64,000 nucleotides of DNA, from NCBI RefSeq assembly GCF_003627795.1, contig NZ_CP032684.1, forward strand, positions 1,093,001-1,157,000. Reading direction: 5' to 3'. The translations under genes and the position numbers were made by a program. The stretch is from Rhizobium sp. CCGE531 (GTDB lineage Bacteria > Pseudomonadota > Alphaproteobacteria > Rhizobiales > Rhizobiaceae). How positions within the stretch are numbered: the first letter of the stretch is position 1; each line of letters begins with the position of its first letter. Of this stretch, positions 22,634 to 23,725 are shown in pieces. Below the pieces are notes generated by a model. That model saw nothing but the letters and a program-made list of their open reading frames with translations, searched no databases and was not told the DNA's origin.

Positions 22634-23725
22634 TGTACGTTGGCGATAGTGTAAGATGGGTGGCGTGACGGAGGTGCGTGTCATCCTTGGGTCTTGAACC
22701 CGTACCTCAGCAAGCGCCTCTGTCGCATCCTTTCTGCTCGAACGGTTGGCTGGGCTTCGAGCCCGCGTTGCAAGGAGGAGCACCCATGAATGCCTCACAG
22801 GATGTTATGGTCGGGATAGACGTCTCCAAGGCTTATCTTGACGTCGCGCTCGACGGCGCCACATCGGTGGCGCGATGGAACAATGATGCGGCAGGTTGCG
22901 ATGGGCTTGCAGCCGCGGTCGCGGGAGCTAGTCTGGTCGTCGTCGAAGCAACCGGCGGCTACGAGATGCGCATGGTGCGCACATTGATGGCGGCCGGTAT
23001 TGCGGTTGCCGTCGTCAATCCCCGCCAGGTCCGCGATTTTGCCAGAGCCAGTGGCCGATTGGCCAAGACCGATCAGGTCGATGCCCGGGTCATCCTGCAC
23101 TTCGCCAAGGCGATGCGGCCGGCACAGATCCCCCATATCGACGACGGCCGCATCGCCTTGGCCGCGCTGGTGGCCCGCCGTCGGCAACTCATCGACATGG
23201 CCGTTGCCGAGAAGAACCGCCTCGAACATGCATCTGCGGATATCGCCGCCCTCATTCACGAGCTGCTTGCCTCCTTCAAGGCGCAGCTTACCCGCATCGA
23301 CACGGCCATCACCCTGGCCATCGAGACCGAACCCGATATGGTCGAACGGCGCGATCTTTTGCTTTCCGTGCCCGGCATCGGCGAGATCACCGCCGCCATT
23401 CTCATCGCCGAACTCCCTGAACTCGGCAGCATCGATGACAAGAAACTTGCCGCCCTGATCGGCGTTGCACCAATGGCCCACGACAGCGGCGCCATGCGCG
23501 GCCAGCGCCATATCGCAGGTGGACGGTCCGCCGTGCGCTGCGCCCTCTACATGGCGACCTTGTCAGCCCTCCGCTGTTCGCCAACCATCAAGGCCTTCTA
23601 CGCAAGGCTGCGCGATGCCGGCAAACCGCCAAAGGTCGCCATCGTCGCCGCTATGCGAAAACTCGCAACCATCCTCAACACAATCGTCCGAAGACGGACA
23701 CCCTGGATCAACCAACACGGTTGCT
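22634..23725 (+). mobile_element. IS110-family insertion sequence, 1092 bases, complete
   Basis: The ends are inferred from target reconstruction: deleting 22634-23725 restores an uninterrupted RIME palindrome with one CT core, while the present sequence has CT at both junctions (22632-22633 and 23724-23725). There are no terminal inverted repeats, as usual for IS110. The element has a 152-base left non-coding end, one transposase gene reaching the right end, and virtually no right non-coding end, which is the layout of the IS110 rather than the IS1111 subgroup. Confidence 0.85.
22665..22785 (+). ncRNA. candidate bridge RNA in the IS110 left end
   Basis: Two hairpin-closed guide regions are visible. 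Target side: TCATCCT (22681-22687), hairpin GGGT-CTTGA-ACCC (22689-22701), ACCTCAG (22704-22710). The first matches the left target TCACCCT with one C-to-U wobble; the second is the exact reverse complement of CT+GAGGT, the right target. Donor side: ACGGTTGGCT (22742-22751), hairpin GGGCT-TCG-AGCCC (22752-22764), CGTTGCAAG (22766-22774). These match the element's right end ACGGTTGCT and the reverse complement of CT+TGTACG, each with one extra base. RNA ends are guesses. Confidence 0.7.

Follow-up and report, generated by a model that had tools for sequence, protein, structure and literature searches.

In the window, a stretch of 64,000 nucleotides from Rhizobium sp. CCGE531 (contig NZ_CP032684.1; all positions below are those of the window), we found that positions 22634–23725 are an insertion sequence of the IS110 group. 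We predict, with a probability of about 0.95, that its recombinase of 313 amino acids is guided by a bridge RNA, encoded in the left end of the element, into a repeated palindrome. Computation established the borders of the element, its empty sites, the complementarity of the guides, and the co-variation both of guides with targets and of the RNA stems. The element is an IS621-type bridge recombinase, a known kind of which this example is new.

The open reading frame at 22786–23727 (plus strand) contains PF01548 (DEDD RuvC-like) and a C-terminal PF02371, both above their curated cut-offs, and it matches the NCBIfam model NF033542, 'IS110 family RNA-guided transposase', at 213.1 bits (cut-off 140). 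Its solved relatives by phmmer are ISCro4 (9t56, E 3.6e-40) and IS621 (8wt6, E 9.8e-39), and its motifs GID, EAT, KTDxVDAR and DSG align to GID, EAT, KTDTVDAR and ESG of IS621. We take the aligned D-E-D-D motifs and the C-terminal serine (by offset to S241) to be the catalytic residues. The genome (7.14 Mb, 5 contigs) holds five near-identical copies of the element, which differ by a single left-end base over the whole coding sequence and the 150 nucleotides that precede its start codon. A further eight copies of IS110 elements in the genome belong to two other types, at 49% and 38% identity, and there is one weak match besides. At C1:2453336 a possible sixth left end was dismissed, since no more left-end sequence goes with it. 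The borders and the recombinase are laid out as follows.

22627–22631, plus strand: left target arm TCACC, within an intergenic palindromic repeat (flank common to 5/5 copies; unbroken in L090, L091 and L094).
22632–22633, plus strand: left core dinucleotide CT (five-copy and empty-site comparison).
22786–23727, plus strand: IS110 recombinase, 313 amino acids, the final two bases of its stop codon being target DNA (open reading frame, domain and relative searches).
23717–23723, plus strand: left donor half-site ACGGTTG of the right end, lying within the coding sequence (sequence, copy comparison and shuffle test).
23724–23725, plus strand: right core dinucleotide CT (copy and empty-site comparison).
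23726–23730, plus strand: right target arm GAGGT, whose GA finishes the stop codon TGA (copy comparison and related loci).

Comparing the five copies fixes the borders at the two core CT dinucleotides, and all five interrupt CCTCA[C/T]C-CT-GAGGTG at the identical base and in the identical orientation. We searched 148 genomes of the genus for the joined flanks without the element. Among the 20 loci examined, which include that of the window, an alignment across the junction was obtained for four: L090, L091 and L094 hold an unbroken CCCTCACCCTGAGG, and L096 differs there. Insertion is thus centred on the short core with no other duplication of the target (five copies, three empty sites). Exact CCTCA[CT]CCTGAGGTG sites that are unoccupied occur 13 times in the genome, while the reversed control occurs 0 times, and a 60-nucleotide piece of the neighbouring repeat matches 12 times in the genome, itself included. 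Therefore, the target is an arm of a repeated intergenic palindrome.

The left end of the element carries four short sequences that correspond to the target and to the element's own ends, and we place them in the predicted RNA as follows.

22634–22785, plus strand: left end with the predicted bridge RNA, whose transcript would start near 22664 (fold with two internal loops; five left-end copies in the genome).
22667–22677, plus strand: outer stem of the target-binding loop, 5' arm, pairing with 22714–22724 (fold and consensus fold).
22681–22687, plus strand: left target guide TCAUCCU (TCATCC in 16/16 distinct left ends of close relatives, seventh base T in 15).
22688–22703, plus strand: hairpin inside the target-binding loop (fold).
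22704–22710, plus strand: right target guide ACCUCAG (complementarity to the right target).
22711–22712, plus strand: putative handshake bases CA, which would face donor TG 23722–23723 after strand exchange (role by analogy with IS621, PMC11208158).
22714–22724, plus strand: outer stem of the target-binding loop, 3' arm (fold and consensus fold).
22736–22739, plus strand: outer stem of the donor-binding loop, 5' arm GCUC, pairing with GAGC 22778–22781 (consensus fold).
22742–22748, plus strand: left donor guide ACGGUUG, the same as right end 23717–23723 and hence pairing with its bottom strand (invariant in 16/16 left ends).
22752–22765, plus strand: hairpin inside the donor-binding loop (fold and consensus fold).
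22766–22774, plus strand: right donor guide CGUUGCAAG, with a bulged pairing to CTTGTACG at 22632–22639 (shuffle test; CGTTGCAAG exact in 13/16 left ends).
22775–22776, plus strand: putative handshake bases GA, of which G faces target C (handshake scoring over relatives).

The left target TCACCCT (22627–22633) fits the guide TCATCCT with one U·G wobble, and the right target CTGAGGT (23724–23730) fits the guide ACCTCAG. On the donor side, ACGGTTG(GCT) at 22742–22748(22751) corresponds to the right end ACGGTTG-CT (23717–23725), and CGTTGCAAG at 22766–22774 corresponds to the left end CT-TGTACG (22632–22639). In the predicted fold each pair of guides sits in an internal loop flanking a hairpin, with the target loop first. 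To ask how often such matches arise by chance, we made 20,000 dinucleotide shuffles of the 152-nucleotide left end with wobble allowed, scoring the right donor guide only as six contiguous pairs with CTTGTA. The single pairs are not rare, as the target pair appeared in 207 shuffles and the donor pair in 161, which is what one would expect if a reader looking for short complementarities had simply found some. All four guides in order appeared in 0 of the 20,000, and a scoring of 35 elements in which no guide was picked by hand (below) gave 0 in 10,000 permutations, so that we count chance as refuted. An earlier note on this DNA had described the four guides by their positions, order and matches, and the sequence is as it described. 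It had also given each donor guide one extra base. For CGTTGCAAG this resembles the discontiguous pairing of the right donor guide reported for IS621 (PMC11208160, PMC11208158). For the left donor guide, the extra base 22749 in ACGGTTGGCT varies among the 16 distinct left ends (G, T or A), whereas the two that follow it are C/T and then T throughout, and a bulge at 22749 is therefore plausible but not proven.

The 16 distinct left ends come from the close clade, a set of 35 loci (some of them the same place fetched twice) of which 33 have a left end. Among these left ends the ACCTCAG guide begins with A or G, and L047 carries one further change. The left target reads TCA[CT]CCT in 28/33 rows, and the right target begins GAGG in 26/26 rows that have a right end; nine of the 35 rows were left out (L017–L020, L046–L048, L054 and L057) as having no recognisable right end or no left end. 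Together with the 5/5 copies in the genome, these rows bear out the expectation that the guides correspond to the places where other copies are inserted. TCATCCT, for which the earlier note reported a perfect match to another repeat variant, is itself the flank of copies L002 and L003. The target is palindromic and its right side is invariant in the clade, a pattern that a recombinase reading the palindrome by itself would also give; the left end would then be a structured leader that controls translation, with a ribosome-binding site (AGGAGG) overlapping its donor loop and last stem, and the guide RNA is a predicted one. Nothing about such a leader would call for sequences that match the element's two ends as well as the two halves of the target, a set that the shuffles failed to reproduce. 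Because the close clade is nearly uniform (1 compensatory pair of 35), we turned to distant relatives for co-variation.

The diverse set, from searches of the family and the order, comprises 35 elements including the window copy, the others being 36–51% identical to it. It keeps one copy per element, drawn from 16 + 45 loci. Three were set aside: L059 (of B type) and L115, whose left flanks are missing or doubtful, and L118, in which no right end was found. When we scored every left end against every element's target, the own-target score was 13.77/16 as compared to 11.85 (standard deviation 0.14) when targets were permuted, and 0/10,000 permutations reached it. Permuting within types raised the mean to 12.80, and still 0/10,000 reached the own-target value. 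The own target ranked first in 23/35 elements and among the first three in 29/35. For the donor ends (33 elements, without L063 and L123, which are in the target scoring) the own score was 13.12/15 as compared to 11.67 permuted (0/10,000). Four stems were scored in 29 elements, and in each of them own arms pair better than swapped arms (0/5,000 each). The co-variation among homologues that the earlier note had called for is therefore present both in the guides with their targets and in the stems.

These relatives bear on how targets are chosen. Among them guides change along with targets, and L113 combines a recombinase of another type with guides that match the target of the window element; both observations argue that protein-only reading of the palindrome is very unlikely. 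A third possibility is that hairpins or cruciforms formed by palindromes attract the element and that the guide matches are incidental, and several relatives do have palindromes or terminator hairpins as targets. Attraction by structure does not account for a base and orientation that are identical in 5/5 copies, nor for relatives that enter other sequences and whose own left end fits best in 23/35 cases; the target of L124, TAAATCCT/CTACGTTA, scores 15.5/16. We consider targeting by structure extremely unlikely. Guidance by a bridge RNA, in contrast, fits the family, the guides, the CT core, the two-loop fold and the sites, which supports the proposal of a bridge recombinase programmed for intergenic palindromes.

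We also asked whether finer features described for IS621 recur, using the 30/35 elements that score at least 13. In the lowest-energy fold of 24/30 elements, the target loop has its inner hairpin as well as an outer stem enclosing the guides. Three of the four handshake positions known from IS621 (PMC11208158) fit more often than under permutation. In the target loop, the first base fits in 27/30 elements as compared to 21.9 permuted (0/5,000) and the second in 16/30 as compared to 11.5 (18/5,000); in the donor loop, it is the first base that fits, in 24/30 as compared to 19.8 (71/5,000). The automatic placement of the right donor guide seems wrong in some rows of this scoring (for example L007, L069, L113 and L119). 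In the C-type elements (L011, L120 and L127) the donor half-site ends in A, not G, and the handshake base there is T (U), not C.

Several results weigh against guidance by a bridge RNA. The RNA is a prediction, known here from the sequence; its fold energy is unremarkable (z –1.59, with 11/200 shuffles equally low), and an Rfam search gave no match at the gathering score. The left target deviates in 5/33 rows of the close clade (L020, L048, L021, L035 and L045). In the diverse set, the junctions used for the 35-element target scoring were placed by eye, and the own target falls below the third rank in 6/35 elements (L058, L061, L062, L068, L119 and L123). Within types, own donors score no better than permuted ones (3405/10,000), so that donors co-vary between types only, and at the second handshake position of the donor loop just 6/30 elements fit (8.9 permuted). 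On the opposite strand, a weak Rfam match to sX15 reached 20.8 bits against a cut-off of 55, and we attribute it to chance.

In the mechanism that we propose, the left end would make a bridge RNA that steers the recombinase. Its first loop (TCAUCCU, ACCUCAG) would pair with the two strands of the palindrome CCTCAYC-CT-GAGGTG, and its second loop (ACGGUUG, CGUUGCAAG) with ACGGTTG-CT-TGTACG, the sequence in which the ends of the element meet in the excised circle. After strand exchange at the CT core the element would be flanked by a CT on either side, with no duplication beyond that. Four parts of this mechanism are inferred from IS621: transcription from the circle junction, binding of the RNA by the protein, the circular intermediate and the strand chemistry. 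Two signals in the left end concern expression.

22652–22657, plus strand: possible –10 box TAAGAT, with –35 TTGCTT and a 17-nucleotide spacer (by analogy with PMC11208160).
22773–22778, plus strand: ribosome-binding site AGGAGG, which overlaps both the right donor guide and the donor stem (read from the sequence).

The –35 box is formed only in the circle, from TTG 23721–23723, CT 23724–23725 and T 22634. A junction promoter has been reported for IS110 elements (PMC11208160), and TTGCTT-17 nucleotides-TAAGAT across the circle junction would place the 5' end of the RNA near 22664. The predicted fold begins the left end with a hairpin, which may correspond to the 5' stem-loop that IS621-type bridge RNAs have before the target loop but which overlaps this possible promoter. 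As the ribosome-binding site overlaps the right donor guide, folding of the RNA or binding of the recombinase might also limit translation.

The element has neither a stop codon of its own nor a non-coding right end; in the window copy, TGA consists of the core T and the target GA. The stop is completed by the target in 23/26 clade rows with a right end (some of them the same place twice), and the exceptions, L015 and L039 (one place) and L045, read on to a later stop. A target-completed stop is also found in L117, from a 42% identical lineage elsewhere on the tree. Among the other 33 diverse elements, 32 have their own stop 8–143 nucleotides before the core, and L120 has none there. On the tree, the feature requires 2 changes. 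Translation across the circle junction would give 324 amino acids instead of 313, with the extra tail LYVGDSVRWVA. Among the 120 matches listed, of 7,535 homologues, the last three residues are HGC, as the right end encodes them here, in 74, and the last two are GC in 103; because of these 74, the target-supplied stop may be older than the clade, as judged by protein ends. A search for relatives of 55–70% identity ending in HGC found only the window's own genome, both among 385 genomes at E 1e-70 and, with P0045, among 398 at E 1e-85; 17 viral-contig loci (36–47% identity) were rejected as too distant. We regard it as doubtful that the guide RNA of the clade in this way also sets the C-terminus of the recombinase, so that the insertion state and target fidelity are written into the end of the protein, and any functional consequence is speculative. 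If true, it would hold the right target arm to stop-completing sequences. We recognised no description of a target-supplied stop in IS110 in a literature search of titles and abstracts that reached few subscription journals.

Other relatives combine targets and donors differently. L113 and four sister copies (L132 and L142–L144), a different IS110 type of 46% identity, have the target CCTCATC-CT-GAGGT, and the L113 guides CTCATCC and GACCTCAG are close to the target guides of the window element. The donor ends of L113 are ACAGTCG-CT-TGTAAC, with a matching left donor guide, and the B-type elements in the window's genome have L113-like donor ends and quite different targets. L113 thus shares its target with the window element and its donors with the B type, and therefore target and donor loops change separately. 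The two further IS110 types of the window's genome (L006–L010 and L011–L013; L006 lies at C1:1161318, just outside the window) have their own targets, and the copies scored, L007 and L011, each rank their own target first. Another IS110 type (L110, L130 and L137–L139) is aimed at CCCATC-CT-TCGAGACG, apparently another arm of a similar palindromic repeat. A group of IS110 relatives (L116, L067, L119, L122, L123, L125 and L126) seems to have CC as its core in place of CT.

One clade (L064, L066, L068 and L070–L073) is inserted exactly between the hairpin and the T-run of an intrinsic terminator. This placement is found in 7/7 copies with enough flank (five from one genome; L065 is without a left flank) as compared to 1/30 other elements. 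AAAAAAG, an A-run, is the right target guide of the clade, and its left guide is similar to the 3' arm of the terminator stem; these look like bridge RNAs programmed for terminators. A literature search on IS110 elements and intrinsic terminators, covering few subscription journals, returned nothing.

Taken together, these data add a natural multi-copy bridge-RNA element in rhizobia. Relatives in which the target guides change while the donor guides stay, and the reverse, are testable natural guide–target pairs, which include intergenic palindromes and intrinsic terminators, and the chosen target that supplies the stop codon of the enzyme is an unusual case. The idea of a rhizobial bridge recombinase is supported, but it is less new than the earlier note implied, as publications already describe both bridge RNAs in IS110 elements and the insertion of such elements into repetitive extragenic palindromic (REP) sequences, rhizobial ones included. 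The element itself was not recognised in a search, by titles and abstracts and few subscription journals, of the literature on IS110, rhizobial palindromes and bridge RNAs.

Among known systems, the IS1111 group shares the recombinase family and predicted bridge RNAs (PMC11208160), but its RNA lies in the right end and its subterminal repeats are longer, whereas the RNA of the window element lies in the left end; a long, IS1111-type right end with an RNA is not found here, where the coding sequence reaches the right core. ISRm19 of Sinorhizobium meliloti, as described in PMC1525189, is likewise of the IS110 family, with 4/4 copies in rhizobial REP palindromes, although the available sections of that paper describe no guide RNA. 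By sequence, the best solved relative of the recombinase is ISCro4 (PDB 9t56), compared as a protein. Another close system is the bridge recombinase IS621 of E. coli (PMC11208160, PMC11208158), itself related by sequence. The window element differs from it in a left end of 152 nucleotides as compared to an RNA of about 177 nucleotides, in lacking a non-coding right end, in that no separate 5' stem-loop is evident after the inferred start, in its target-completed stop and in its target. It resembles IS621 in the two-domain IS110 recombinase, the RNA encoded in the left end with a target loop and then a donor loop, the split guides, the core CT within the pairings, the discontiguous right donor guide and the handshake bases.
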